Positions 1-28,054 of a stretch of DNA of 53,754 nt are shown here, piece after piece (position 1 is the first letter of the stretch; each line of letters opens with the position of its first letter). The position numbers and the translations under genes were made by a program. The stretch is taken from NCBI GenBank assembly GCA_016098155.1, contig JAAAJB010000208.1:1-53754 (forward strand). The letters are read 5' to 3'. The DNA comes from Actinomortierella ambigua (lineage: Eukaryota > Mortierellomycota > Mortierellomycetes > Mortierellales > Mortierellaceae). Under the pieces are notes generated by a model. It saw only the letters and a list, made by a program, of their open reading frames with translations. It was not told the DNA's origin and made no database searches.

Positions 1-2588
1 CATCACTCTGGTTGACCCCGCGTCCTTGTGCGTACATGAATCCAAGGTTGAGTTGTGCATCGGCTACTCCTTGTTGCGCCGCCTTGGTGTACCACTTGAC
101 CGCCTCAACATCACTCTGGTTGACTCCGCGTCCTTGTGCGTACATGAATCCAAGGTTGTATTGTGCCGGGGAAAACCCTTGCTCTGCTGCCTTGGTGTAC
201 AACTTGACCGCCTCAACATCGCTCTGATCCACTCCGTGTCCTTCCACATACATCAGTCCAAGGTTGCATAGTGCGGGGAAATAACCTGCTATCCTGCTGT
301 ACAGCTTGGCTGCCATAACATTACTCTGATCAACTACGCGTCCTTCAACATGCATGCAATCAAGGTTGTCTTGTACGTTGGCATCCCCTTGCTCTATTGC
401 CTTGGTGTACCATTTGACCGCCTCAACATCATTCTGATCGACTCCAAGTCCTTCTGCGTACATCAATCCAAGGTTGCATTGTGCAATGGGAATCCCTTGC
501 TCTGCTGCCTTGGTGTACCACTTCACCGCCTCGACATCATTCCGATCGACTACTAGTCCTCGTGCGTGCATCAATCCAAGTTTGAATGGTGCACTGGCAT
601 CCCCTTGTTCTGTTAACCACTTGACCGCCTTAGCATCGCTCCGATCGATTGCTCGCCCTTGACCATACATCCATCCTAGGAAGCCATGCGCGCCCGCACC
701 CTCTTGCTCTGCTGCCCTCGTGAACCACTTGGCCGCCAAGCCTAGACCCTGATAGGTTTGTCTGTCTTGCTTACACAGCATACTAGACAACTAAAAATCG
801 TCGAAAAAAATTCCGGTAAGAAAGATTCAGGAATGGTTGTCATTGTGCCGGCGGATTGGAGAGAGAACACCATCATCACACTATCAACTTTTCGAACTTT
901 GTTTTCAACAACTTATCGTACCAACATGGTCAACTTGGTGCGCCATTTGACCTCAATGGTGACACATGAATGTCGCTCCAGGTGCGCCTGTCCTAGCCAT
1001 AACTGCGCTGCCGGATTCCCTTGCTCTGCTGCCAGAGTGAGCCATTTGAGTGCCTGCTCATCGCTCTGGACCACCCCCCGCCCAAGAGCGAACCATTGCC
1101 CAAGGATGGTCTGAGCTTCATGGTGTCCCTGCTCAGCTGCCATCTCATACCATCGAGCTGCCTGGGAAGTATCTTCCTTGACTCCATAGCCTTCGGTGTA
1201 CATCTTCCCAAGTGTCATTTGTGCTTCTGCGCTGCCACCATCAGCTGCTTTACGATACCATGTCGCAGCCTTGAAAGCATTTCTCGAAACAAAGCCATGC
1301 CCGTCCTCATACATTCGAGCGATTCGTATCTGCGCCACCACATTCCCGCCATTGGCTGCCTTGCGGTACCACCAAAACGAGTCTCGCTCACTCTTGACAA
1401 CGCCTCGCCCATGACCATAAATCCATCCGAGAAAGAGCTGTGCATCGGTGTTCTTTGCTTTGGCTGCCGAGCAAAAATAGGTCACCACGTCGTCATCCGT
1501 CTGTGGCAAACAACCAACGTAGTCATCATGGTTCTCAGGTATCGCTTCCTGTTCTGATCCTTCGTCACCGCGATTGTGGGCTTCCGGTACATGTGCCAAT
1601 CCAGTTCCGCTACTACCAAGATCAAGAAAGTCCCCATCTGCATCGGTGCTCGCTTCGGCGGATTCATCCTGTACCAGAATTACAACGCCAGCGTTCGGTC
1701 GATCGCATGGATCATGGGCCCAGCAGCGCTCAACCCACGAGCGGTATTCGAGCGGAGTCTCAACAGGCAGTTGTTCACGACGACCATTCTTGACATGAAG
1801 TGCAATCAATTCATCGTCGTGCTGGTCTTTAAATGGTCTTGTGCAGTCGGCCGCCATCTCCCACATCACCACTCCTAGAGCGTACACATCCGACTTGGTT
1901 GAGTACTTAGGCTTGTCTGCAGAAAGTAGCTCTGGGGCTAGCCATCGAAGTGTCCCTGCAGCACCTTTCGATGTTTGACCGCTGGCGCTCGACGCTGCAC
2001 TGGCCATCGACCGGATCTGAGCCAATCCAAAGTCAGCCAGCTTGACCTCCATGTGCTTGGTCAGGAGCACATTGGCACTCTTGAGGTCGCGGTGGAGGAC
2101 TCCTTCCTGATGGATGTAGGCGAGCCCTTGAGCAATCTCATGAGCGAGCCGCCTCTTGGTCACCCAGTCGTCGCATGCGAGATGGCCATTGTTGATAGCC
2201 TGTGTGAGACTGCCTTTCTCGGCCAGTTCCATGAGGATGTAGATGCTGTCGTTTTGCTCATAGATTCGGTAGAACTGGATGACGTGGCGGAAGCGCAGCC
2301 TCTGGAGGACCACGATTTCCTTGTCGATAGTCTTTCTGTCAAGCTCCGACTGACTGAGGAAGAATGCCTTGGCTGCACAGGGCTGATCTCCATACTGTGC
2401 TTGGTGGACGACACCGAACGTTCCTGAGCCAAGCTTGGCTCCTAGAACGAGCAGAGAGTGCTAGTGGATAGAGTATCATGGCGTCAGAGAGGAGCCATGT
2501 ACGCAATCTATTCTTTTGGGTTTGTCACACGCGGACGTAAAGAAATAAACGTTTTGCTCCTTACAGTGAACGAAGGTTTGGCTTCCAT
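1..2588 (-). CDS. Protein kinase with Sel1 repeats, copy 1 (runs off left edge)
   Basis: Best model is complement(<1..748, 922..2433, 2565..2588). The kinase domain has a glycine loop (GSGTFG), the ATP lysine in CAAKAFF, HRDLKSANVLL, DFGLAQ and an APE motif (LAPELL); this is the tyrosine-kinase-like group that signals by Ser/Thr phosphorylation. An acidic linker follows, then 36-residue Sel1 (TPR-like helical) repeats that normally bind protein partners. Exon 1 is a 24-nt candidate (MEAKPSFT). It joins in phase only if the acceptor is the AAG just before CTT at 2433; a nearby TAG acceptor would shift the frame. The reading frame stops at 913, but Sel1 coding resumes at 748 and stays open to position 1. 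A phase-0 intron 749-921 (GTACGA...CAG) bridges the two; a broken gene is the alternative. The coding frame closely matches the copy at 24187-28054. Confidence 0.75.
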
Positions 2589-5304: not shown

Positions 5305-5385
5305 TAAAGCCTTTATTTAACATATTCATTATATTCATTCGGTCGCATTGATGTCTGGCTTGCCAACACCTAGAGGGCCTGGAGT
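5305..5385 (-). repeat. 3' end of an unknown gene, shared with 9841-9920
   Basis: This block matches 9841-9920 almost base for base. On the minus strand both copies read as a last exon ending in PLGVG.PDI...TE then TGA, followed by an AATAAA-type poly(A) signal. The homology stops at a shared CTCCAG that looks like a splice acceptor. At this copy the block is fused directly to the 3' half of a nuclease-like gene on the opposite strand. Confidence 0.5.
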
Positions 5386-5902
5386 AACTCTCTCAAGCCG
5401 AGAGTTAGAGCTTCTAGTAATAGAAGCGGCAAAGAAGAACGAGGGGCCCAATGTCACCAAGGCATTGGATGACAGGATGAAGTTCTGCAAGTTGACGAAG
5501 GATATGCATGACCACATCCGTGTCGACACCAGGCACAATGTTCGCAAGAGCATTGTGACCTTTGGCATGCAAATCTCAGGTGTGAAAGCCACCTTTTTTA
5601 CTCTGCGGCAGCGTGATGGTAGATTCTACCAGCTCTGCTCCGAGGGGAGCGAGACGCTTCCACCTACTTGGATGGATCAAGCCGACACTAATTGTGTCAT
5701 ACGAACTCTGAGCAAAGTGCTCACCGTTCGCAAGGCGCTCTTATCGATGGCGAATGATGTGTCCGAGTTCACGGCAGGCATGGTGGACGACTCCGATACT
5801 AGCAGCGGCGAGGACTTTGCAGCGGCCACCATGACGAGCCCACAGTTGATCCCCTCGTCTCCCCCTCTCACTCCTGATCAGCCATTCAGGCTACAACTGT
5901 AG
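5348..5902 (+). pseudogene. Nuclease-like gene, 5'-truncated copy C
   Basis: From about residue 16 to the end (184 residues), this reading frame is closely similar to the C-terminal ~175 residues of the intact copy at 12101-14201. It includes ELELLVIEAAK, the DDRMK...DMHD helix and the HNVRKSIVTFG segment. The N-terminal two thirds are missing. The first 15 residues come from a foreign block (5305-5385) read on its other strand, so the ATG is probably fortuitous. The acidic residue expected in the VDGIV motif upstream of IEAAK is lost, so a PD-(D/E)XK active site would be incomplete. An AATAAA lies at 5936-5941, as after copy A. Confidence 0.7.
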
Positions 5903-6164
5903 GTTGGTGTTATTTCCTTCCTTCTGTTTGAAAAAAATAAAAACTTGTGAATACATATCAGACATGGGGTCACTACGAAGATTGCTGTAAACCAAGCTGA
6001 GAAGTGAGGGCTGGTGGTCGCAGCCCAGGATACTGAAGCAAAGAAATTCCAGTCTTACGTATACATGCCTAATTAGATCACTATTGTAATCTCTGATAGC
6101 ATACGCTCTTTTTCTTTTTTTTTTCTTTTCCAAAAGGCATTCAGTGTCCCAAGGCAAAGGAAAT
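5903..6164. repeat. 3' flank of copy C, shared with copy A
   Basis: The sequence to about 6056 matches 14202-14361 downstream of copy A. From 6057 it matches 21549 onward. The two partner segments lie 7.19 kb apart near copy A but are contiguous here, so this is an uninterrupted version of the copy A locus. Confidence 0.75.
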
Positions 6165-6660
6165 CTAGGAATCAGAGTATAACATATAGTCGCCTTCTAT
6201 GTGGGTAAACAAAGCAGTTTTGGGCCTCTCCATACTTCTTCTCCATTCAAACCAAACTTTTCCTTTGATAATACATTTTTCCATCTGTCCTCGCTCATTG
6301 AGCCTCACGAAAGGTAAGCGGCCATCATCTGGTACCTTTTGGACAAGGTCACGCAGCGCCCAGAAGGCGTACCGCCCTTGGTACCACGCGAATGATAGAC
6401 ATGTGTGTCCTGGGCCAGTAATGACGGAACGTTTTGCAACCGCTTGGCCATTATTATCGTTCCTTTGCTTCAAGCACAGTATTCGTAAACTAAAAAGAAA
6501 GCTTGTACGGACGGGCTGGCAGTTCTGATAAACCCAACTTACTCGCCGATCTGGAGTTCCAGTGCCGCTTGCATCTTGATAGTGTACGCTGCAACACGGA
6601 ACCCCATAGCGAGCCTCTCGCAATGGCGGCGAGGAGGGAGCGATTATATCGCTTTGGTAG
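6165..6660 (-). pseudogene. Relic of a nuclease-family N-terminal header plus unknown tail
   Basis: On the minus strand, 6490-6640 reads VAAY...MQAALELQIGE, a stop, then VGFIRTASPSVQ. This matches residues around VAAYVLRMQTASDL...GYVVFVKAASPS at the start of exon 3 of copy A. The downstream minus frame (about 6165-6450; RYAFWALRDLVQ, PDDGRLPFVRLNERGQ) is unlike copy A but is repeated at 21600-21940, so it may be a different C-terminal module on the same header. I do not recognise it. The in-frame stop within the header indicates decay. Confidence 0.45.
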
Positions 6661-7594: not shown

Positions 7595-9116
7595 CTAAAG
7601 TCCCAGCCAGGGTGGCCGATCAAGAGCAGACGAGGGAATCAGCTGTGGGCTCGTCATGGTGGCCGCCGCAAAGTCCTTGCCGCTGCCAGTATCAGAGGAG
7701 TCGCTCGCCAAGCCCGCCGTGAACTTGGATACATCACGCGCCATCGAAAAGAGCGCCTTGCGGACGGTAAGCACCTTGTTCAGAGTTTGCATGACACAAT
7801 TGGTGTCGGCTAGGTCCATCCAAGCAGATGGAAGCGTCTCGCTCCCCTCGGAGCAAAGCTGGTAGAATCGGCCATCGCGCTGCCGCAGAGTGAAGAAGGT
7901 GGCATTCACGCCCGATATTTGCATGCCGAACGTCACAATGCTCTTGCGGACATTATGCCTGGTCTTGAGACGGATGCGGTCGTGCATGTCCTTATTCAAC
8001 TTGCACAGCTTCATCCTGTCATCTAATGCCTTGGTGATATTAGGCCCTTTGTTCTTCTTTGTTGCTACCATAACTAGAAGTTCTAGCTCTCGGCTCGCGA
8101 GAGTGACTATGCCATCAACTTCATGCCCTGCAATCCGGTGTGTGTCACGCGAGCGATCCAGATTCCGCCGATACATCGAGGCTTGGGAGGGGACCTTCCC
8201 CGGCTGGAACTCAACCTTTGGTGGGCTCTGCAAGGCATCTGCGAGGAAGCTCCATAGGCGGTTCACTATCCAGGACTCTGGATAGCCCTGACACACGACC
8301 ATACTCGCTCCACGGTACACTTTCAGAAGCTGATGCACGCTGTTGTACACCAGGCACTGAAAGTCGTCGGCGGGCTTCTCCTGCAGGGAATCGCCCACAG
8401 CCCTCCACCCTTTCTCGGCGAACAGCTCTAGCAACTCCTTAGGATCCATGTTGAAGAGCTCCAGATAGGCTACTTCCGCCGCGGTCAACATCGGAAGCTG
8501 CTCGCCCACCCTGTCGACGAGCACCCTTTTTAGCTCTGCTTGGTCTCTGGCGTCTGGGAAAAGGTCGATGACGGCGTCGGGGTTCTCGATGACAAATGAA
8601 TGCAGAGGGCATTCATAGTGGACGTCCCTTATAGCCCCGAAGAGCACGCGGTCAAAGGGCGCGCCCGACGGCATCAACCAATCTTGTCCTCGGAACCGGT
8701 CGAAGTTCATCTGGAAGAGAACTTGCATCTGAGCGATCTGGGTGAGCGATAGATGATTCCCACTGCCGCTGCCGCTGCCGCTGCCGCCGCTGCTGTTGCT
8801 GTTGCTGTTACTGGAACTGGAACTGCTGCCGTTGCTAGAGTTGTCGTCTGACACCCCCTCAGAGTCATCATTGGATTCATCTCTGCTCTCATGACTCGAC
8901 TCTTGGGCGTCTCTGTCACCCCCAACTCGTCTTTTGGCTGATGGCCGGCGATCCTCCTAAAGGGGAAAATATTTAAAGTAATAAAAGCGGTGCACGACAG
9001 AGCGCGAGATGTTGGCCCGCTTCTCCACTGCGTATCATACATTAGTGTACCCGGCAATACCCATCCTTCTGGATGCGTACCTTGTTTGGATCTTGAGACG
9101 GGCGCTTGAGAGACAT
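7595..9116 (-). CDS. Putative PD-(D/E)XK nuclease-like protein, copy B
   Basis: Model is complement(7595..8956, 9081..9116), 465 residues. Exon 1 encodes MSLKRPSQDPNK and its intron runs from 9080 to 8957 (GTACGC...TTTAG); gene structure and sequence match exons 1-2 of copy A. A Ser/Asn/Gly-rich linker leads to the conserved body (NHLSLTQIAQMQVLFQ..., RFRGQDWLMPSGAPF). The last 180 residues hold HEVDGIVTL, then a slightly altered LELLVMVATKK where copy A has LLVIEAAKK. The catalytic Glu of the putative E-x-x-K is therefore replaced by Val. Relative to copy A it lacks intron 2 and about 150 residues of the N-terminal header, yet stays in frame. Function is unproven; a relation to REase-type effector or transposon nucleases is inference. 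Confidence 0.7.
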
Positions 9117-12100: not shown

Positions 12101-14201
12101 ATGCCTCCAAAGCGCCCATCACAACTTCCAAACAAGGTGCGCATCCACACAGAATAAATGAGTATTGCCGGATACACTATTTTATGATATGCAGTGGAGA
12201 AGTGTGCCAACATCTCGCGCTCTGTCGCTCACCAGATTTTTTCTTTCAAAATTTTCCCCCTTAGGTGAATCGCCGGTCAACAATCAAAAGACGAGTTGGG
12301 AATGACAGAGGCGACCAAGAGTCGAGTTATGAGAGCAGAGATGAATCCGATGACGATTCCGAGGAGGTGTCGGACGACAGGTCTGACAAGGAGCAGCTGG
12401 ATGGCGCAGACCACGTATCAATGGAAGAGGTACGTTGCGAATAAAGACATGTATGAGCCGGATGAGTATCGACGGAATGTTTTTTAACCACTTGGCCATT
12501 ATCTTTCCTTTGCCTTAGGCACGGCTGTCGTTCAAACTCGCACAAGCAATCCGCGGGAGACGGCCCACTAAACTGCAGGTCAGTGTTGCAGCGTACGTTC
12601 TCAGAATGCAAACGGCTTCAGATCTCGCAGTCGATGGGTACGTTGTGTTTGTAAAGGCTGCCAGCCCGTCTGCCCGAGCGGTCAACTTGATTTCCGAATG
12701 GGAGTCTCTCAGGACGTTTTTCACTGGCGACAGCCAGCGAAGACACGCCAAGGTGGCAGAACTGGTCAATTTGCCAGTTCTGATAGAACTGTTCAAAAGG
12801 GCGCCTGCACTGGATGAGCAGATGGTTGAGGCAGCGTCCATGCCGCCACCACCTCCTCCTACAACGACGGTGCATACAAGATCGTCATCAAGGGCTCTAG
12901 CGTGCAAGATCAACACCAGCAGTGGTGGTGGCAACAACGGCCAGGGTTCCAGCAACACCAACGCCAACAGCAACAAGGGTTCCAGCAACACCAACACCAA
13001 CAGCGGCAGCGGCAGCGGCAGCGGCAGCACGAAACATCTATCGGCCACGCAGATCGCGCTGATGCAAAACCTCTTCAAGAGGAACTTTGACCAGTTCCGA
13101 GGACAGGAGTGGTTGATGCCGTCGGGCGCGTCCTTTGACCGCGTGATATTCGAGGCTACCAAGGACATCCACTATGAATGCCCTCTGCATTCATTTGTTA
13201 TTGAGCACCCTGACGCTGTCGTCGGCCTTTTCAAAGACGCCAGCGACCAAGCTGAGCTGAGAAGAGTGCTCATTGACAGGGTGGGCGAGCAGCTGCCGAT
13301 GTTGTCCGCGGCGGAATTAGCTTATCTGGAGCTATTCAACATGGGTCCCGTGGAGCTGCGAGAGCTGTTCACCAAGAAAGCGTGGGGCGCTGTGGGCGAT
13401 TCCCTTCAGGAGAAGCCCGCCGACGACTTTCAGTGCCTGGTGTACGAAAGCGTTCAGCAGCTTCTGAAGGTGTACCGTGCAACGAATATGATCGTGCGTC
13501 AGAGCTCTCCAGAGTCCTGGATAGTGAACCGCCTATGGAGCTTCCTCGCAGATACCTTGCAGAACTCACCACAGGTTGAGTTCCAGCCGGGAGAGTTTCA
13601 CTCTCAAGCATCGATGTATCGGCGGAATCAGGGACGCTCGCGTGACACACGCCAGGTTGCAGGGCACAAGGTGGATGGCATAGTAACCCTCATGAGCCGG
13701 GAGCTAGAGCTTCTAGTAATAGAAGCGGCAAAAAAGGACGAAGGGCCTAATGTCACCAAGGCATTAGATGACAAGATGAAGCTGTGCAAGTTGGCTAAGG
13801 ACATGCACGATCGCATCCGTCACAAGACCAGGCACAATGTTCGCAAGAGCATTGTGACATTCGGTATACAAATTTCGGGCGTGAATGCCACCTTCTTCAC
13901 TCTGCGGCAGCGCGAAGGCCGATTCTACCAGCTCTGCTCCGAGGGGAGCGAGACGCTTCCACCTACTTGGATGGATCAAGCCGACACCAATTGTGTCATA
14001 CGAACTCTTAGCAAAGTGCTCACCGTTCGTAAGGCGCTCTTGTCGATGGCGCTTGATGTGTCCAGGTTCACGGCAGGCTTGGTGGACGACTCCAATACCA
14101 GCAGTGGCGAGGACGTTGCGGTGGCCACCATGACGAGCCCACAGCTGATCCCCTCGTCTCCCTCTTTCGTTCTTGATCAGCCACCCACGCTGCATCTGTA
14201 G
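12101..14201 (+). CDS. Putative PD-(D/E)XK nuclease-like protein, copy A (full length)
   Basis: Exons are 12101-12136, 12265-12429 and 12519-14201; all junctions are phase 0 with GT-AG introns, giving 627 residues. Exon 1 encodes MPPKRPSQLPNK and exon 2 is acidic and Ser-rich. Exon 3 opens with a header (FKLAQAIRGRRPTKLQ...VAAYVLRM...FFTGD), then a Pro tract and an Asn/Ser/Gly linker, then the conserved body. In the C-terminal third, D453 (HKVDGIVTL), E469 and K472 (LLVIEAAKK) have spacing compatible with a restriction-endonuclease-like active site. That reading is inference, since the core is E-x-x-K rather than E-x-K. AATAAA follows at 14207-14212. The long acidic/linker N-terminus with a nuclease-like C-terminus resembles the layout of Crinkler-type and transposon-derived fungal proteins. 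This is the most complete copy in the window. Confidence 0.75.
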
Positions 14202-14596
14202 AAAAAATAAAACCTCTTGTCCTTGTAGCCAAGCCTTATATTCATCAATGTGTAAATACATCTCAGACATGGAGTCATTATGAAGATTGCTGCATAACCA
14301 AGCTGAGAAGTGAGGCTGGTGGTCGCAGCCCAGGATACTCAAGCAAAGAAATTCCTGTCTTCACCAATCAACTACAGGACTTTTTAAATAATTGGGACGA
14401 TGTTGTCTAAAATTTGGGACGTCCAAAACGGGAATTTGAAACAACCACAGAGTTTTGGTAGATCATACAATATCCTTACACAGCCCATGCCGCCTGAGTA
14501 GGACGAAGAGTTGTGACCTTGAGAGATAGCGATGGAGTCTATTAAATGAACCGAAAAAAAGAATAAAAAAAGAACGAGAAGAGCGCGATTTGGGTA

Positions 14597-15311
14597 GTGC
14601 ATAGCCTTCGTCCTCCTTCCTCTATTTTTCGACACATAGCCGCCAACTTGCGCCTCGCTGTCGAATCATTCGTTGCTGCTGGATATACCTCTGTGGTCAT
14701 GGCATCACCTACCGCTAATACAGCCAAGCTTGTGATGCTGTCTGCTGAGTACATATCCCTTCTCTGCGCGTTCTTCAAAACGCGGTTGGGAAGCATGCGC
14801 AGAGTTGGGAAAACGTTGCCCTTGAGGCCTATAATTGTCAAGGCAGAGTGCCTCAAGAACGGGCTGCCTCGATAATACGATGGCTAAATCACTGGGATAT
14901 CGCGATACCAAGTACCGCTCCATCGTCCTCATCTGGTTTGTCCTCGCCTGCCATGCCCCCGCCTCCCTCGCCCTCGTCCGGCTCGGGTATCCACCTTCAA
15001 TTCATCAACGTACCATCGTGGAGCGCGGGTCCCAAGCGGTACGAGACCACGCACAGGAACGTCGATTGTCCGTTGAGGAACTTCAACAACCTCAAGGTGT
15101 AGGCGACTGGGGTGGAGGTAGCAAAGGCCGACACGAGGTTCGCGAGGTTTCTTGTCGATATATCCAACAGCTCCCAAGGCCGACTGTTTCAAGAAAGGCA
15201 AGCGATCATCATCCGGTGGCTCTTGGACAGGGCCACGCAGCGCCGAGAAGTTGGACAGTTTCTAGGCCAACTGGTGCTACGATACACACTGACTCTATTT
15301 CTGTATCATAG
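14597..15311. pseudogene. Degraded coding relic, strand uncertain
   Basis: On the plus strand, frames joined across one stop near 15103 read FINVPSWSAGPKRYETTHRN, then ADTRFARFLVDIS, then QERQAIIIRWLLDRATQRR. A similar QERAASIIRWL occurs at 14850. The minus strand is also open (VQEPPDDDRLPF...KKPREPRV) and resembles the tail of the relics at 6165-6450 and 21600-21940 (DPIQEAPDDGRLP). I cannot tell which strand was coding and do not recognise the family. Its presence inside the inserted segment and in the flanking modules suggests it belongs to the same mobile gene pool. Confidence 0.3.
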
Positions 15312-15675
15312 GTCCAGCCCAGCCATAAACACTAAACCAAAAAGATCCTGGATAATAAAACATCAGGTCCGCGAGTTTTGCTGCCTTTTCCACTGACAGA
15401 ACCTTCTTTATGAATGCTTCAATCAATGGCTCAAGCTGCTTCTCTTATGCTTTTGTATACGCAGATCGAGGAGCCGCGACTAGGCTTTGAGCTGCAGCGG
15501 ATGTTTTCTCCTTCTGGCTACTAGCGCAGGCAGAAACATTACTTTGTTGAGCAGCCTGGAAGTCGCGAAAATTCATCAATGAACGCAAGCGGTCATGTTT
15601 GGAGGTCTTGGATTCGGCGATATGATGCTTGTCGGTCGACTCGACGCCTGTGCCATGGTGGCACAGTAGTGCTTA
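15305..15675 (-). pseudogene. Possible coding relic with one in-frame stop
   Basis: The minus frame reads through about 120 residues (SLMNFRDFQAAQQ..., SLVAAPRSAYTKA, a TAA stop near 15455, then EKQLEPLIEAFIKKVLSVEK). Amino-acid usage looks protein-like rather than random, with amphipathic helices. No family was recognised. The stop and the lack of a start make it a relic at best. Confidence 0.25.
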
Positions 15676-16082
15676 GATTGCAATCACTCATCAACATAGA
15701 TATGACTCTGCTCTAGTTAGGCAAAACAGCAATGACAATAAAGACTCTTTTCTTCACGTGTTCTCCTCTTTGTCTACTTTTGTACGTCCTCTCCAGGATG
15801 GTGTGCTGGATTAGCGTGGGTCGATAGCTGGTCTAGTCGTTATGTTTGACACAGTACGGCCCTTCCTTCTGGCAGCGCTGTTCCTCTAGATCTCGCATGT
15901 GGACTAGCATCTCTTGGAACATGGTTGGCAACGTGCAGGTGGATGACTCGGTTGAAGCACAGGGATGATTTGAACCTTTGAACCACCCTCTTTCGAGGTT
16001 AGCTTCCCATTGCCACTAAAAATTCTCCTATCACGTTACACGCTGTGTGATAGATAATCCTCGGTTTGATCATCTGATTTGA
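15676..16082 (+). promoter_or_regulatory. Presumed promoter and leader of the Fanzor-like gene
   Basis: About 400 bases with no coding signal precede the ATG at 16083. No TATA box or repeat stands out. Any structured guide RNA gene, if present, would have to be sought here or in 21441-21548 by RNA data. Confidence 0.25.
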
Positions 16083-19000
16083 ATGAACATCACATCATCC
16101 ATGGCGACCCGTACAACTATTGTCTTGGCGCCAGTTCGCGCACCTGTTCCCCCCAAGTCTCGCGGACATCAACCTGATCCCGGCACAGACCCTCCTCCAA
16201 ACAGAATCCCGTTCCAACAACTGATTGATCTCGAATCGCCACATTGGAACAATCAGCCGAACCAAAAGCATTTTCAAACGCGCATCAACCAGGCACTTTT
16301 GGATTGCGAGCAGAATGACGGAGAATCGGTGCAAGGGACCTCAGACCCTCTTAACGATGCATTTGTTGACCCCGAGCTAAGAGACGGTCGCGAAAGAACC
16401 TACCATACCGTGGCAGGTTTGCTGAGGCATGGCCTTATCGTCACTCAGGACGACTCGCGGCGGGACGTGTCAACATTTATCAAGAGGCATTTTTTGGGGG
16501 AGACATCGGAGTACAGACTACAGCTAGACATCCACAACGAAGGCACAGAAGAGATCATGGCAGTTAAATGCCCTCCCAATACACGACTCCTCTTCTCGCA
16601 CCTTGCGAGTACACTTCACGCCAAGATCTACATCTTTTCGAACCGAGCAGCACCCCGCCTCTATGGATCTCCTGAGGCCAAGACAGCATGTGCTTTCCTT
16701 CACGTCGTGGACTCGTTCTTAGGAACCAGTGAGTACCTGACTCTATCTTTCGCCAACCACAAGACAAAGCGGATGCTGCGGAGGCAGAGTGTCACTGCAA
16801 CGACCCAACAGCCACGGTCTGCCCCACCTGGTTACCCCGCCCAATATCGTGAGACACAGCGCGCACGCCATAAGGCATCACCCTTTGATCATTCTGATGC
16901 AGCACAGAACGAGCTGATCCACTCGTTCGAAATAGCTTGGTAAGAGCAGCATGTGATCTTTTCCACATCAAATTACACCTCCACTGCCTTTTTCATTACT
17001 TCTAAAACATGGTTTGTGCAACATGTTACAGCATAGATCACATGAAGCAGAAGTCGACACAGCGCATCCAGCCGCTTTTTCGCAGAAGGAGGAGAGGCGG
17101 CAGTGGCACGCCATCCGAAGAGCGGCTGGCTGAGGTCAAGGCACAATTGTATGAGGAGTTGACTTGCACGAATACCGCACCACGAGGACTATATACAACA
17201 GCAATGGCGATACACCGCAGACATACAGGCAAGAGCTCGCAATACGCTCATTTTAGAACCGAGACATTAGATGCAATCGCATCTATCTTCCAAGAAAAAC
17301 GTCAAGCTCGCTTAAAACCAAATGACCGTGCATTGGCCCTTGATGACGAATGTCTCGCGCTGCTATTTTGGCTCAACATTTTCGGCGACAAGTTTGACGA
17401 CGTTTGGAGCGGAGTCTACAACAACATTCTCCTGGGAGCCGTGACGCCCACAGAACAGCCTTCGCGTCCAGAAGCAAAGGATAGTGATGACGACGACGAC
17501 GACGACGACGACGACAACGATGGCGATGGTGATGATGATCGGAAGAAGGTTGAGACTCGCACCTGTACGGCAACCTTGAAGCAAACATTGCGCCCCGAAT
17601 TGCGTGACAACCCAGTCGTTTTGTCGCGTATAGTGGAGCTACTTGAACAAATGCAATGTGCCGCCACTAATCTGGAGGATGAAATTTATGAACTCGTTCA
17701 TAAAGAACTTTTGGTGGTATCTATATCTATATCAGCGAATTTCTTAAAGATTAAGCAAAATTATTTTGTCAGTCCTTGCAGAAAAACTCACCTACATATA
17801 CCTATTTGTAGCTCGCTAGTGGCAACATGTGGAGTGATAATCCAGGATCCTTCGATCTGAGCACACTGCTACCACCTGGTTTCGAGCTGGGGACGCCCGA
17901 GCGCACTTTAAGTGTCGCTCCCTTGCCAGATGGGCTGCAAGACGAGGTGGAAGCCGCCATTAAGAGCAAAAGTGGTTCAGAGCTTGTGAATCTTTTCTCC
18001 CAAAACCATCTCAGCAAACTTGCTCACCACTTCAGCAGCTCGACAATGGATGGCCGCCTCCATATCGAGAGTGTTGACGGTACTTCACCCTCGTTCTGGA
18101 CTCGCCTTGCCCAAAAAGTTTTTGCAGCATCCAGCTGCCAGCCGCTGCAGTCCCGGAGTGGGATGTCAAAGACGGGGGAAGCCCATATCCGACAATGCAG
18201 CACAATGATAAACAACCTGCTGCATGGGTCGGTGTATACAAAGAGTTTGGACTATTTGCTTCGCTTCTTGCTGCGGGCATGGCTGGCCCCATGTCGTGAG
18301 GCTTCCAACAAGGAGCGCAGGTCAAAGCATGTCGGCGACAAGAAGGCTCTGGTACAAGAGCGGTTGGAAAGGCGGGCCGGGCGACTCACACCATCACACT
18401 GGAGACACGCCATGCGAAAGCTATGCGACGAGCTCGCTGATTGTGACCAGGTGGACAGCATTGCACAAACAAGGCGAGAATCGGCCATCCGAAGACGTCG
18501 GCGTCTGATGCGGGACATTGCTGCTCTCTCCAAGAAAGACCCGGGACAGAGGTTTTGGGACCAACATCCCATCAAGCCCCTTGACGACTCGGCGCATCTT
18601 GATGATTTCGAAGCGAGAGGCGAACACGACCCACCTGATGGCGACGATAGCGACGACGATGACTCGCCGGAGTTGCTCCAAGAGGATCTTGATCATAAGA
18701 TGCTCATTGACAAGACTACGGAGGCGTCGGTGGAGTTGCTCCAAGTAGGTCTTGACCACAAGATGCTCATCGATAAGACTACCGAGGCGTCGGCCACCAG
18801 CTCTCCGGCGACAATGCATGCGGCATCGGAATCGACTCCAACGACATCACCCTCAGTCAGAGAGCCCTCTCGCAAGCAACTGCAATCTCTGCAAGTTGTG
18901 CTAAGAACCCTGATAGAGTCACCGTCACCGCTCGCACAATACTCGCTTGAGGATGTGAAGAACGCCGTGTATAAGGACCACAATTTTGCTGAGGCCGAGC

Positions 19001-21440
19001 TAGAGGTCGTCCGAGACTTGGCCAACAAATTGAGGCCGTTTTGCCCACGTCGCTGCTTGAACGACAGTGAAGACGGGTACCGTCAACACTCACCCAACGC
19101 TGCCTTGCGAGCTCCCATTATTGTGTTGGCGAACGCAGTTATGCGCGCTATGGGCCATTCCGACTTTACACGGCGAATATGCCCTCACATTGCTGCAGGA
19201 GACACCCATGCACTTCACCTCGGCCCTCAGCAGTTGTTCGAGACACTATGTGCTTCGTCCCCTCGTCATTTTGACGTGCAGAATGCAGACAACAATCCAA
19301 TCACAAATACGACGGACGTAACGGCGGACAGAAGGAATAAAAGATGCCTCATGGAGGCATTTTTTGACATGACCAAAATCGACTCTATTTGTGGGCGACA
19401 TGGTCTCAAGTTCAACAATCGGTAAGTCAAAAACCAAAAATTTGTTTTTTTTCACGTGGCAAGTTGTCCGAATATATTTTTTTGATGCGACTCTTATAAT
19501 ATTTGCCCCCATAATCTTTGCTGCAGCATTCTTTTCTCCGACACGGACACCCTTCATCTTGTCGGAAGGCAGACAACAACCGACGACGATCCACTTCGAC
19601 ACCCAATCACTAGCAACTATCAATCAAGGTGTGCATCGAACGATGGAAAGTGGCGCCGCCTCTGGCAGGAGCAGGAGAGACAGGGTCTTACCCAGGAGGA
19701 TGTAGCGCAAAGGATTGCTGAGGCCAAGGAGAATGCCGATACAATCAAAAAGCAACTGGATGCATCACGGAGAAGGTTTAGGCAGCTGCAGAGTCAAGCC
19801 AAAGGGGCGATTCAGATTTTCAATGAGGACAAGAAAAACCGCAACAACTTCATCAGCATGAAAGAGCATCAGCAAGACGCGAGACGTGCTAGCAAGGATG
19901 TGTCGAGGCTTGTGGAAGCGCGATCCAACGCCAACAAAGAAGCCTACTTCTGGCGGAAGATTGAATCGGCAGCTAAAGCAGCCACGAGACTTGGCAAGAA
20001 GACCGTGGCCAAGAAGAAGAAGACCGTGGGTCCAACAACTCCGTCTTGGAAGTCTCCAGGGTCAGAAGATGTTCCACAGCATATCGATGCTTCACCTCTT
20101 TTAGGGAGCCACGGCCAGTATTCTTCTTCTGGTAGGAAGAATGTTGTTGTATGTTGGACCGAGGATCCTGGCGTGCGTGTTATGTCCCACAATGTCCCCA
20201 GGACCATTGAGGAGTTGCAGAGATCCGTAAACCAGTTCGAGGCCTTGCAGAGTAAGTCACAGAATGAGGAAATGATACGCCCACTTGCGTCCCCTACGTG
20301 TGTTCTAATATATAGACATTGAATTTGAATCTAGATCTGGCTACATCTGCAATGGATGTTGACACTGAAGACGATGGTAACGACTTGCCTGGGCCCAACA
20401 AGACAACGACTTTGGAGGCACGGTCTCATTCAGAGGTAGTGGCGGCACTCAAAAGGGCGCAAGCAATGAAACTTCCTGCGGCAACCAAGGTGACAGCCAA
20501 GCACCTGAACCAGGTCTCTTTCACCACAAAATTCATGAAGACGCGTGAGCGAGCATTGGCAGACCCCAAGAACGTTGCTGCCAGCAACGCATTGAAAGCC
20601 GTGTCCACCAAGGAGGCAGCCTTGTCTTCAGCCACCACCATCGCCCAAATCGACAAAGCAGCTGGCATTCGTCGTTTGGCCAAAGACGAACTTCGGAAAT
20701 TCAACGATTCTCGAAACCTGAAGAAGTTGAGACGGACCAAGCGCCATCGCAATAGTCGAGCGTTGGCAAAGATGGCGAGCCATGTACGAGACAACGCCAC
20801 CAAGCATGCTCTCAACCAACAGAAGCCGGAGCCTGAGCACGAGTCCATGCCATCGAGCGTTGATCAAACCACGGGATACTGCAGCAACTGCGAGGAATAC
20901 GAGATGCAAAAAGTCACCTCTGGATGTTTCCAGCACCCCACCAGCTGCGTCAAGCACAGGCCCCAAGTTGTTCATATCGGCTTCGTCGGAGATTCAGGGA
21001 GTGGCGTTGGATCGCGCATCGGAGGGCATGTGCGCCGAGGTGGAGGTCAACTGCGTGCTGCACACCGGCAGCATGCAGTCGTGGCAATAACAGATGAATA
21101 CCTCTCCAGTCAGAGGTGCCCGCTGTGTTTTGAGCGAACGCGACCAGCACGTTCACGCCGAAAGAAACGCGACGGCAGCATCAAGACAGTATTAGTCAAA
21201 GGATCCATGGAATGCCGAAACCACGACTGCTCATCGTTTTGCTGTGGTTACACTACAAAGCCACGAGATTCCCAAGGGTCCTTCAACATCGGCACCAACG
21301 GCTACAGCCTGCTAACAACTAAGAGGCCGTTGGATTGCTTCTCAAGATATGAATACCAGCGTCTGATTGCTGGAGCCCAAACCCGTGCCCAACTCCAAGC
21401 CTCAGGAGCGATGGACACTCCCCAATGGGGCTACTTTTAG
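16083..21440 (+). CDS. Fanzor-like (TnpB-lineage) RuvC nuclease, 1660 residues
   Basis: Five exons: 16083-16939, 17032-17716, 17812-19421, 19527-20251 and 20335-21440. Introns are 83-105 nt, GT-AG, and phases join with no stop. The C-terminal third shows RuvC-I TEDPGVRVMS (D1264), RuvC-II TDEYLSSQRCPLC (E1547) with zinc-ribbon cysteines C1554, C1557, C1586 and C1591, and RuvC-III KPRDSQGSFNIG (D1604). This is the order and motif set of TnpB/Fanzor enzymes, which are RNA-guided DNA nucleases in characterised members. The remaining ~1200 residues include a 14-residue acidic, mostly Asp run (about residue 439), two near-identical LLQ..LDHKMLIDKTTEAS repeats (about 790-830) and a basic coiled region before RuvC-I; no other domain was recognised. 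Length is far above typical Fanzors. The first two exons could be a separate gene, but phase continuity argues for one. MATRTT at 16101 is an alternative start. Confidence 0.72.
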
Positions 21441-21548
21441 GTATTGCATATTTGTCTTGTTCCAATTTTTTTTCTTCCTTGTGCCAAATTTCTTACAAGC
21501 ATGTTCTAACTAATTTGTGACGTTGCTCTAATTTTCAAAAAACAGGAG
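21441..21548. other. 3' end of the inserted segment
   Basis: AT-rich downstream sequence of the RuvC gene up to the junction with copy A flank homology at 21549. It ends in CAAAAAACAGGAG. There is no clear poly(A) signal of AATAAA form. Confidence 0.35.
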
Positions 21549-22040
21549 TACGTGTACATGCCGAATTAGATCACTAATCTCTGAAAGGCATTCAGTGTCC
21601 CAAGGCAAAGGAAATCTAGGAATCGGAGTGTAATATATAGTCGCCCTCTATGTGAGTAAAAATGCAGTTTTGTGCTTCTCCATACCTTTTCTCCATTCAA
21701 ACCAAACTCTTCCTTTGATAATAAGTTTTCCCATCTGTCCTCGCTCATTGAGCCTCACGGAAGGCAAGCGGCCATCATCTGGCGCTTCTTGGATAGGGTC
21801 ACGCAGCGCCCAGAGAGCGTACCGTCCTTGGTGCGTCGCGAATGATAGACATGTGTGTCCTGGGCCAGTAATGACGGAACGTTTTGGAACCGCTTGGCCA
21901 TTATTATCGTTCCTTCGCTTTAAGCATGGTATTCGTTAACCAAGGAGAGCACTTGTACGGACGGGCTGGCAGTTCTAATAAACCCAAAGTACTCGCCGAT
22001 CTGGAGTTCCAGTGCCGCTTGCATATTGATAGTGTCAGAA
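21549..22040 (-). pseudogene. Second relic of header plus unknown tail
   Basis: Matches 6057-6590. The minus strand reads MQAALELQIGEYFGFIRTAS then PSVQVLSLVNEY, which extends the match to copy A (ASPSARAVNLISEW) further than the relic at 6490-6640 and lacks the stop seen there. Downstream frames (RYALWALRDPIQEAPDD..., VRLNERGQMGK) are shared with 6165-6450 but are not joined in one frame to the header. It is unrecognised and probably non-functional. Confidence 0.45.
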
Positions 22041-24186: not shown

Positions 24187-27100
24187 TTACGCATTTGCAT
24201 CCCCTCGCTCTGCTACCTTGGTATACCACTTGACCACCTCAACCTCACTTTGATCGACTCCTTGTCCTTGCGCGTACATCACTCCAAGGGTATGTTGTGC
24301 ATAGGTATGCCCTTGTTCTGCTGCCTTGGTGTACCACTTGGCCGCTTCAACATCACTCTGATCGACTCCTTGTCCTTGTGCGTACATGAATCCAAGACTG
24401 CTTTGTGAATTGGCATGCCCTTGCTGTGCTGCCTTGATGAACCACTTGACCGCCTCAACATCGCTCTGATCAACTCCTCGTCCTTCTACGTACATTACTC
24501 CAAGGTTGTTTTGTGCATCGGCATCCCCTTGCTCTGCTGCCTTGGTATACCACTTGACCGCCTCAACATCACTCTGATCGACTCTTCGTCCTTGTACGTA
24601 CATTGAACCAAGATCAATTTGTGCATTGGCATTCCCTTGCTCTGCTGCCTTGGTGTACCATTTGACCGCCTCAACATCGCTCTGATCGACTCCTCGTCCT
24701 TCTGCGTACATCAAACCAAGGGTGTGTTGTAACTTGACATCTCCTTGTTCGGCTGCCGTGGTGAACCACTTGACCGCCTCAACATCGCTCTGAGCGACTC
24801 CTCGTCCTTGTGAGTACATAGAACCAAGGTGCCATTGTGCATCAGCATTCCCTTGCTCTGCTGCCTTGGTGTACCACTTGACCGCCTCAACATCGTTCTG
24901 ATCGACTCCTTGTCCTTGTCTGTACATCACTCCAAGGCTGTTTTGTGCATAGGCATTCCCTTGCTCTGCTGCCTTGGTGTGCCATATGACCGCTTCAACA
25001 TCGCTCCGATTGACTCCTCGTCCTATTTCGTATATCAAACCAAGGGCGTGTTGTGCATAGGCGTGCCCTTGTTCTGCTGCCTTGGTGTACCACTTGAACG
25101 CCTCGACATCACTCTGAGCGACCCCTCGTCCTTGTGCATACATCACTCCAAGATTGTTTTGTGCATCAGCATATCCTTTCCCTGCTGCCTTTGCGAACCA
25201 GTTAGCCGCCTCAACGTCGCTCTGATCTACTCCTTGCCCTTGAGCGTACATCAAGCCAAGGATGAGTTGTGCATCGGCATCCCCTTGCTCTGCTGCCTTG
25301 GTGTACCATTTGACCGCCTCAACATCACTCCTATCGACTCCGCTTCCTTCCTCGTACATCACTCCAAGATTAAACTGTGCATAGACATTCTCTTGCTCTG
25401 CTGCCTTGGTCCACCACTTGACCGCCTCAACATCGCTCTGATCGACTCCTTGTCCTTGTCTGTACATCACTCCAAGGCTGTTTTGAGCATTGGCACTCCC
25501 TTGCTCTGCTGCTTTGGTGTACCATTTGACCGCCTCAACATCGCTCTGATCGACTCCTTGTCCTTGTCTGTACATCAAACCAAGGGTGTGTTGTAACTTG
25601 ACATCTCCTTGTTCGGCTGCCGTGGTGAACCACTTGACCGCCTCAACATCGCTCTGAGCGACTCCTCGTCCTTGTGAGTACATAGAACCAAGGTGCCATT
25701 GTGCATTGGCATTCCCTTGCTCTGCTGCCTTGCTGTACCACTTGACCGCCTCAACATCGTTCTGATCGACTCCTTGTCCTTGTATGTACATCACTCCAAG
25801 GCTGTTTTGTGCATAGGCATTCCCTTGCTCTGCTGCTTTGGTGAACCACTTGACCGCCTCAACATCGCTCTGATCGACTCCTTGTCCTTCTCTGTACATC
25901 ACTCCAAGGCTGTTTTGAGCATTGGCATTCCCTTGCTCTGCTGCCTTGGTGTGCCACATGACCGCCTCAACATCGCTCCGATTGACTCCTCGTCCTATTT
26001 CGTACATCAAACCAAGAGTGTGTTGTGCATAGGCATTCCCTTGCTCTGCTGCCTTGGTGTACCACTTGACCGCCTCGGCATCATTCTGATCCACGCCTCG
26101 TCCTAGTGCGTACATTGAACCAAGGTTGATTTGTGCATCGGCATTCCCTTGCTCTGCTGCCTTGGTGTACCACTTGACTGCCTCAACATCACTGTGATCG
26201 ACTCCTTGTCCTTGTGCGCAAATCATTTTAAGGTTGCGTTGTGAGTTGGCATACCCTTGCTCTGATGCCTTGGTGTACCGCCTGACCGCCTCAACATCGC
26301 TCTGATCGACTCCTCGTCCTAGCGCGTACATTGAACCAATGTTGATTTTTGCATAAGCAGAATTCGCTTGCTCTGCTGCTTCAGTGTACCACTTGACCGT
26401 CTCAACATCGCTCTGATCGACTCCCTGTCCTTGTGCGTACATCGAACCAAGGCTGTACTGTGCATTGGCATTCCCTTGCTCCGCTGCCAGAGTGAGCCAT
26501 TTGACTGCCTGCTCATCGCTCTGGATCACTCCTCGCCCAAGAACGAACCATTTCCCAAGAATAGTCTGGGCTTCATGGTGCCCTTGCTTGGCTGCCATCT
26601 CATACCATCGAGCTGCCTGGGACGTGTCTTCCTTGACTCCATACCCATTGGTGTACATCTTTCCAAGTGCAAGTTGTGCTTCTGCGCTGCCACCATCAGC
26701 TGCTCTACGATACCATGCCGCAGCCTTGGAAGCATTGCTCGACACGACGCCTTCCCCATTTTCGTACATTCGAGCAAGTCGTATTTGTGCTACTACGTTC
26801 CCACCGTTGGCTGCTTTGCGGTACCACCATAACGAGTGTAGCTCACTCTTGACAACGCCTCGCCCATGACCATAAATCCATCCGAGAAAGAGCTGTGCAT
26901 CGGTGTTCTGTGCCTTGGCTGCCTTGGAAAAAAAGGTCACCACATCGTCATCCGTCTGTGGAAAACAACCGACGTAGTCACCATGATTCTCAGGTATCGC
27001 ATCCTGTTCAGATCCTTTGTCACCGCGATTGTGGGCTTCTGATATATGCGCTAATCCGGTTCCGCTACTGCCAAGATCAAGAAAGCCCCCATCCGTATCG

Positions 27101-28054
27101 ATGCTCTCATCAGCGGATTCATCTTGCACCAGAATCACGTTGCCAGCATTCGGTCGATCGAATGGATTCTGGGCCCAGCAGCGCTCAACCCATTTGCGGT
27201 ATTCAAGCGGAGTTTCGTGAGGCAGATCTTCACGACGACCATCCTTGACACGCAGTGCAATCAATTCATCGTGATGCTGGTCTTTGAATGGCCTTGTGCA
27301 GTCGGCAGCCATCTCCCACATCACCACTCCTAGAGCGTACACATCCGACTTTGTTGAGTACACGGGCTTGTCTGCAGAAAGCAGCTCTGGTGCCATCCAC
27401 CGAAGCGTCCCAGCAGCACTCTTAGATGTTTGACTGCTGACACTCGATGCCACACTGGCCACACTGGCCATCGACCGGACTTGAGCCAATCCAAAGTCAG
27501 CCAGCTTGACCTCCATGTGCTTGGTCAGGAGCACATTGGCACTCTTGAGGTCGCGGTGGAGGACCCCCTCCTGATGGATATAGGCGAGCCCTCGAGCAAT
27601 CTCATGAGCGAGCCGCCTCTTGGTCACCCAGTCGTCGCAGGCGAGATGGCCTTTGTTGATAGCCTGTGCGAGACTGCCTTTCTCGGCTAGTTCCATGAGG
27701 ATGTAGATACGATTGTCTTCTTCACAGATTCGGTAGAACTGGATGACATGGCGGAAGCGGAGCCTCTGGAGGACCGAGATCTCCTTGTCGATGGTCTTTC
27801 GGTCAAGCTCCGACTGACTGACGAAGAATGCCTTGGCTGCACAGGGTAGATCTCCATACTGTGCTTGGTGGACGACACCGAACGTTCCTGAGCCAAGCTT
27901 GGTTCCTAGAGAGAGCAGAGTGTGCTAGTGGATAGAACATCAGAGTCAGAGAGAAGGCATATGTTAATAATCTATTTCGTTAAGCTCGTTGCACGCGGAG
28001 ATAGAAACAACCATGCGTTTAGATCATTACCGTGAATGAAGATTTGGCTTCCAT
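24187..28054 (-). CDS. Protein kinase with 25-26 Sel1 repeats, copy 2
   Basis: Model is complement(24187..27897, 28031..28054), 1244 residues. A 24-nt exon 1 (MEAKSSFT) is followed by LGSGTFGVV, CAAKAFF, HRDLKSANVLL, DFGLAQVR, MAPELL and DVYALGVVMWEM: a full tyrosine-kinase-like catalytic domain of about 260 residues. After an acidic linker come 25 complete 36-residue Sel1 units and one partial (consensus EAVKWYTKAAEQGNA.AQ..LGVMYAQGQGVDQSDV). The first four are diverged and the rest nearly identical. Sel1 solenoids are protein-binding scaffolds, so the protein is probably a signalling kinase with a large docking surface, acting in the cytoplasm. The exon 1 acceptor is ambiguous, as in copy 1. 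This copy is uninterrupted; kinase-Sel1 expansions are known in mucoromycotan fungi. Confidence 0.82.
24250..26520 (-). repeat. 108-bp tandem Sel1 repeats with a higher-order duplication
   Basis: About 21 near-identical 108-bp units encode the homogenised part of the Sel1 array. A larger block is duplicated inside it: the units around 24714-25045 recur 864 bp (eight units) away at 25576-26010, including the unusual EIGRGVNRSDVEAV.WHTKAA and FTTAAEQGDVKLQHTLGL variants. This indicates unequal crossing-over or gene conversion in units of several repeats. Confidence 0.8.

Follow-up and report, generated by a model that had tools for sequence, protein, structure and literature searches.

A divergent, oversized Fanzor1-like protein encoded by a probable mobile element of the fungus Actinomortierella ambigua

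Results

The window, a 53,754-nt stretch of DNA from the fungus Actinomortierella ambigua, corresponds to contig C122 of a 33.8-Mb genome in 846 contigs. It contains a five-exon gene at 16083–21440, whose predicted protein of 1,660 residues carries a TnpB/Fanzor-type RuvC and zinc-ribbon signature and which lies in what is probably a mobile element of about 7.2 kb. Unless stated otherwise, features are on the forward strand. Exon 1 (16083–16939) encodes residues 1–285 and part of 286, an unrecognised N-terminal region, and exon 2 (17032–17716) extends to residue 514 with an acidic run inside. Exon 3 (17812–19421) covers residues 515–1050 and part of 1051, including most of the conserved blocks 511–740 and 871–1065; a tandem 63-nt repeat at 18664–18789, with copies 84% identical, yields a repeated ELLQ...LIDKTTEAS unit in this exon. 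Exon 4 (19527–20251) encodes a coiled-coil-like stretch and RuvC-I, and exon 5 (20335–21440) encodes RuvC-II, the zinc ribbon, RuvC-III and the stop codon. The joined exons form 4,983 nt with a terminal stop only, and the introns of 92, 95, 105 and 83 nt have GT-AG borders in all four cases.

The best protein match was the annotated ortholog DFQ26_003042 (P0001), a "hypothetical protein" of 1,584 residues from A. ambigua, which agrees with the window protein at 1,573 of 1,584 aligned positions; of the 11 differences, one falls at a splice boundary. Its annotation uses other introns and lacks residues 1–6, 287–306, 326–361 and 1051–1064 of the window model. A Modicella relative (P0002) matches the window well at 1048–1066 (13 of 19 residues identical), fairly at 322–364 (14 of 43), and hardly at 284–310 (3 of 26), but there with a similar length. 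Because P0002 keeps segments that the P0001 model drops, we favour the five-exon model, with the clearest case at intron 3. The sequence across each of the first three junctions is present in relatives; the fourth falls within an acidic stretch of low conservation, and its support consists of the open frame and the same join in P0001.

The RuvC and zinc-ribbon residues were compared across 15 aligned proteins, comprising the window protein and 14 relatives. The RuvC-I aspartate, D1264 (codon at 20164–20166), is retained in all 15, within a D-x-G motif that reads DPG in five, DNG in six and DYG in four; the window has DPGV. The RuvC-II glutamate, E1547 (21096–21098), occupies the alternative position six residues before CxxC and is conserved in 13 of the 15. 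Its motif in the window is EYLSSQRCPLC, and E-x6-CxxC is whole in 12 proteins. The zinc-ribbon cysteines C1554, C1557, C1586 and C1591 (21117–21230) are each present in 12 of 15, while the RuvC-III aspartate, D1604 (21267–21269), belongs to an RD pair (1603–1604) found at the aligned place in 11. The motif order of Bao and Jurka (D ... [TS][TS]xx-C4 zinc finger ... RD) is present, with a C4-to-RD spacing of 11, inside their range of 5–50.

It could be proposed that the protein is a catalytically dead or non-nuclease relative whose RuvC core would serve as an RNA- or DNA-binding platform, for example in element regulation. The variation of RuvC-I among DPG, DNG and DYG and the long extra parts of the protein fit such a role, and the activity and fold that we propose are read from sequence. 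Nevertheless, the catalytic residues are retained at the frequencies given above, and the misses are models that end or depart at the place concerned: P0008 stops after the glutamate, P0003 is without the RD part, and P0009 and P0013 diverge before the glutamate and zinc ribbon. Furthermore, of 17 genome loci examined, the window among them, five (C338, C16, C781, C413 and the window) keep the glutamate, the four cysteines and RD with no stop between them. We therefore consider a dead relative improbable. A further locus, C220, keeps the catalytic and zinc residues, but in pieces with a stop.

Through three protein searches, whose queries were C-terminal only and each of which scored the approximately 7,990 candidates with the most shared words, the 14 related proteins were identified in Actinomortierella, Modicella, Mortierella, Benniella, Mucor, Rhizopus and Helicostylum, with one unnamed. 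The family thus spans Mortierellaceae and Mucorales. Twelve of the 14 proteins have 985–1,599 residues, and the remaining two, of 649 and 695 residues, seem incomplete. A tree of the core, rooted for drawing only, separates Mucorales from Mortierellaceae with support of 100/100 and places the window beside Modicella; 3 of its 12 inner branches are open, and the placement of three long-branch rows is unsure. The Mucor and Rhizopus members stand for clusters of 12 and 41 sequences, respectively, which may be copies or strains. In A. ambigua, pieces of DFQ27_005639 match contig C338 at 86–99% (tblastn). Two proteins labelled Rhizopus arrhizus (P0005) and Mucor circinelloides (P0007) differ very little, with end branches of 0.003 and 0.044, which points either to recent intergeneric transfer or to an assembly under the wrong label. 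No viral relatives of P0005 were found. Seven loci of the viral search were matched by Fanzor/TnpB-type C-termini; of the two inspected, one (L069) is a TnpB and the other (L071) an unrelated protein.

Assignment to the Fanzors comes from the catalytic C-terminus. A profile of the last ~130 residues of ten members, searched against 177,635 PDB sequences, gave SpuFz1 (E 0.0051) and PpFz1 (E 0.042) as its top matches, the other three listed matches having E-values of at least 1.8. In the profile alignment, a second cysteine pair of the form G-x-x-x-C-x-N-x-x-C is common to the family, SpuFz1 and PpFz1. An hhalign comparison with three Fanzor/TnpB-type C-termini of the same genome gave E 1.2e-5 and a probability of 81; one of the three, L005, is itself nearest to TnpB-type PDB chains. 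PF07282 (TNB) was matched in 8 of 10 trimmed members at E ≤ 1, and PHROGs gave weak "transposase" matches in three of ten trimmed members (best E 0.062). An NCBIfam scan of four proteins returned no relevant match. Full-length family profiles met no Fanzor in the PDB, drawing coiled coils, acidic stretches and chance matches instead; in the exon 4 region, the family profile met coiled-coil chains at weak E-values. Since the family is conserved and a Fanzor-specific profile match was obtained, chance is an unlikely explanation of the gene and its signature. As a separate observation, L001, L002 and L005 are fragments of Fanzor/TnpB-type C-termini in this genome.

A preliminary description of this DNA had proposed the five exons with four small in-frame introns, the intact triad D1264/E1547/D1604 with four zinc cysteines, and a TnpB/Fanzor-type signature. 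The predicted gene structure was reproduced as one open frame with GT-AG introns, every residue lies where it had been placed, and the motif order and Fanzor1 profile matches support the signature as predicted from the letters. The similar long, uncharacterised Mucoromycota proteins that it mentioned were recovered by our protein searches, and its view that the length far exceeds that of known Fanzors also holds. Most Fanzor1 proteins have 600–700 residues (PMC11423790), with lengths of up to ~800 (PMC10711439), so that 1,660 residues are roughly double the greatest length that these papers state.

The limits of the element were defined by an empty site within the window. The window carries two diverged copies of one segment, A and B, and 14362–21549 (~7,188 bp, with one gene and a 1-bp ambiguity at the ends) is absent from A, which spans 5383–6585 with the junction after 6056. 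Copy A 5383–6056 and copy B 13682–14361 are 84.5% identical, and copy A 6133–6585 and copy B 21584–22035 are 90% identical. Directly before the junction, the two copies share 38 of the final 40 left-flank bases, and directly after it (A from 6057, B from 21550) they share 25 of the first 27 right-flank bases, a match that none of 2,000 shuffles equalled; these first right-flank bases were left unaligned by MAFFT, matched by eye and then checked against the shuffles. The letters read ...CAGTCTT|ACGTATACATG... in copy A and ...CTGTCTT[7,188 bp]ACGTGTACATG... in copy B. Of four decayed relatives of the 3' part of the gene that were aligned, two cease to match at the right end of the element, C614 at 21550 and C228 at 21548. 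Near the left end, a subterminal block at 14386–14449, which starts 24 nt inside the element, is 83% identical in paralog C208, which is related to the 5' side; a blastn match to C254 runs from 14522 onward only.

The absence of 14362–21549 from copy A could alternatively represent a deletion, the gene then being an ordinary resident locus. There is one comparison site only, its flanks are 10–16% diverged over their length, and neither a target duplication nor a clear terminal inverted repeat was seen at the element ends, all of which leave room for such a loss. However, two separate paralog loci lose homology at the same right end, a third (C208) has a matching block a short way inside the left end, and the family is dispersed in the genome, and we judge a deletion highly improbable.

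The left block contains AATT(T)GGGAC twice, at 14390 and 14411, and the same motif recurs inverted as a right subterminal pair on the reverse strand (21459–21490, with units at 21459–21467 and 21481–21490). The form AATT(T)GG[ACG]AC occurs four times in the window, two near the left end and two inverted near the right; the motif was chosen post hoc, and its counts by themselves are within chance. The subterminal inverted repeat is weak, with the score of the window ends reached by 20 of 1,000 shuffles and 9 of 2,000 internal pairs; for the other five end pairs, the score was reached by 4 to 99 of 1,000 shuffles. Helitron ends were judged by eye not to fit. A repeat at 15689–15976 has ~10 other loci, exceeding 1 kb in some, and none of these loci shares its contig with a Fanzor-type match; the idea that these represent ghost elements was rejected, as they are part of a longer dispersed repeat. 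None of the eight other open reading frames (ORFs) of at least 120 residues in the element matched a Pfam model at E ≤ 0.1.

The stop codon lies 109 nt before the right end of the element, and SpuFz1 loci have an 80-nt region between the stop codon and the 3' inverted repeat (PMC10432273). By position and this analogy, the 3' non-coding end (21441–21549) is a candidate site for a guide-RNA scaffold. From the same anatomy, the right flank (21550–21570) would be read as guide, and the left flank ending in GTCTT (14350–14361) would hold the target-adjacent motif (TAM). The right end had no match in Rfam, and comparison of three sequences gave a weak helix.

Family matches were found on at least 27 contigs, the window's included, a count that is a lower bound with 28 of 66 candidates scored. 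None of the DNA-level relatives was intact in the parts examined, which show stops, gaps or cut ends. Two loci, on C220 (L014) and C351 (L015), are an internally deleted copy in which the equivalent of window position 16677 is joined to ~20920; because the same internal deletion lies in shared flanks, they represent one duplicated decayed copy.

Changes at codon positions 1/2/3 were assigned to branches using outgroup loci. With C439, the window had 7/3/10 (20 changes) against 24/21/18 (63) for C351, with 20 unresolved, and 9/2/9 against 20/8/17 for C220, with 13 unresolved. With C614 in place of C439, the counts were 2/1/4 against 11/7/6 for C351, 3/1/4 against 10/4/4 for C220, and 3/1/4 against 3/5/5 for C228. 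Every comparison shows fewer changes on the window branch than on the other, with few of them at second positions, a pattern suggesting that the window copy is under constraint.

Such constraint would also be expected of a domesticated nuclease, an immobile element whose single intact subfamily copy would be retained in the service of the host, for instance to control other elements. The lack of an intact DNA-level relative in the parts examined and the near-identical protein in another A. ambigua record (the 11 differences noted for P0001) point in the same direction. Conversely, the defined element limits and the empty site, the spread of the family over at least 27 contigs, and the Mucor and Rhizopus clusters, whether copies or strains, speak for mobility, and domestication appears unlikely, though worth keeping in view. 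The preliminary description had left the choice between an active element and a domesticated nuclease open; the empty site and the two paralog ends favour its mobile-element half, while its domestication half has gained no support so far, and no host role was seen.

No credible Pfam or PDB match was found for the first ~850 residues in searches of those two databases; the best Pfam E-value, 0.0028, fell in the acidic run and below the cut-off. An OTU-like fold for residues 100–235, an idea formed by eye, was rejected after it drew nothing from the PDB up to E 10 and no support from Pfam. Known domains were likewise rejected for blocks 465–740 and 881–1064, for which no credible match was obtained (best Pfam, FmrO, E 0.0038 in one of seven members). 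From size and conservation, we guess that the Fanzor core starts near residue 870.

Several neighbouring genes were also noted. The genes at 12519–14201 (forward) and 7595–8956 (reverse) are paralogous members of an unnamed family with 28 genome matches, including those of the window. The family had no Pfam match above cut-off and, by eye, looks like a PD-(D/E)XK-type nuclease. A Fanzor/TnpB-type fragment on C12 lies ~0.75 kb from a member; a functional link between this family and the Fanzor gene was rejected, given that besides the window only C12 has a member near a Fanzor-type match. A gene at 24187–27924 (reverse) encodes a protein kinase joined to an extended array of 24 Sel1-repeat stretches, and 913–2460 (reverse) is, by sequence comparison, its shorter, diverged copy. 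This kinase/Sel1 pair belongs to the duplication that yields the empty site.

Discussion

Fanzors are eukaryotic RNA-guided nucleases that have been described as compact. The protein described here appears to represent a transposon-borne Fanzor1-like lineage that is both divergent and oversized, and it is probably the RNA-guided nuclease of the 7.2-kb element, a reading in which we infer the fold, the guide RNA, the TAM, the cleavage and insertion rather than loss. If it behaves as SpuFz1 does (PMC10432273), transcription running from the final ~100 bases of the element into the right flank would yield a guide RNA. The guide-loaded protein may then cut the joined flanks of an excised or unoccupied site, after the short left-flank TAM, and the element would be regained, and so persist, through repair templated by an occupied copy. 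Movement would presumably depend on an enzyme supplied in trans. Because no other ORF of at least 120 residues in the element has a Pfam match, either such an enzyme or an unrecognised one within the N-terminal 850 residues would be needed. These residues may add contacts or partners to the Fanzor core. Alternatively, they could constitute an unrecognised mobilisation enzyme fused to that core, so that a single protein would be responsible both for moving the element and for the RNA-guided cut by which it is copied; we regard this as a long shot which, if true, would make the element a single-gene autonomous transposon.

Several observations weigh against the proposal of an RNA-guided Fanzor1-like nuclease carried by a mobile element. 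First, the D-to-[TS][TS] spacing is 285 in the window, above the 125–275 of Bao and Jurka; it is 202 in P0004 (from positions 805 and 1005), and we read the window value as a length variant of the motif rather than its failure. The score of the Pfam PF07282 (TNB) model stayed below its cut-off of 26.3 bits (17.8 for exon 5 and 20.6 for the trimmed domain), and only weak matches were obtained in three of seven whole proteins at E ≤ 0.1. The window protein has no TDG motif, which three of the 14 other members carry at varying places, and the location of the WED domain was not found by profile search. Profiles of three blocks before RuvC-I had no credible PDB match. Because of the D-to-zinc spacing and the TDG result, the protein is called divergent Fanzor1-like and not a certified Fanzor1. 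At the right end, no stable RNA fold was found (z +1.13; 175 of 200 shuffles fold as well). As to the element limits, ~35–40 bp in the right flank of copy A are absent from B before the match resumes, the C228 match has gaps at its end, and paralogs C351 and C220 stop earlier, at 21525 and 21444. Finally, with outgroup C439 the window had 8/1/7 changes against 7/13/11 for C228, with 11 unresolved, and the branch counts are an informal test over at most ~170 codons.

No earlier report of an oversized Fanzor1-like lineage was found in the literature, in a search that left supplementary files outside its scope. A conserved lineage whose proteins reach up to two or three times the length described for Fanzors, present in two fungal orders, would indicate that Fanzors can carry large extra domains, paralleling the Cas12 enzymes, which gained extra domains after arising from TnpB. 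The intact gene, decayed sisters, empty site and predicted guide together offer a testable set, with a bearing on what moves Fanzor elements that lack a recognised transposase.

Comparison with known systems places the window protein closest to Fanzor1. SpuFz1, PpFz1 and GtFz1 share with it the RuvC-I DPG, the alternative glutamate six residues before CxxC and the RuvC-III RD; the first two of these features are listed among Fanzor criteria (PMC10711439), and the window protein has both. SpuFz1 resembles it further in the position of the gene near the right end of the element. Unlike Fanzor1, the window protein has ~850 extra N-terminal residues, no TDG and a longer RuvC-I-to-zinc spacing, and its element is without clear terminal inverted repeats. 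The five exons have precedent, as Fanzor1 genes with several exons occur in Chlamydomonas (PMC3627910). The TnpB proteins of IS200/IS605 and IS607 likewise combine a D-E-D RuvC and a zinc ribbon with carriage by mobile elements, but they are prokaryotic, mostly of 350–550 residues, and typically have the canonical glutamate and a hydrophobic second RuvC-I residue (PMC10711439). A further parallel is MCi-2 of Mucor circinelloides, a Mucoromycota element without terminal inverted repeats whose 6-kb 3' part codes for a Fanzor (PMC3627910). It differs in its target duplications of 11–12 bp and in the partial Crypton transposase of some copies (PMC3627910). Its 11 copies (PMC3627910) stand beside the 12 member sequences, copies or strains, of the P0004 cluster, a comparison by description only. 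On this descriptive basis, MCi-2 (Bao and Jurka 2013), the one possible overlap met in the literature, may belong to the oversized lineage.

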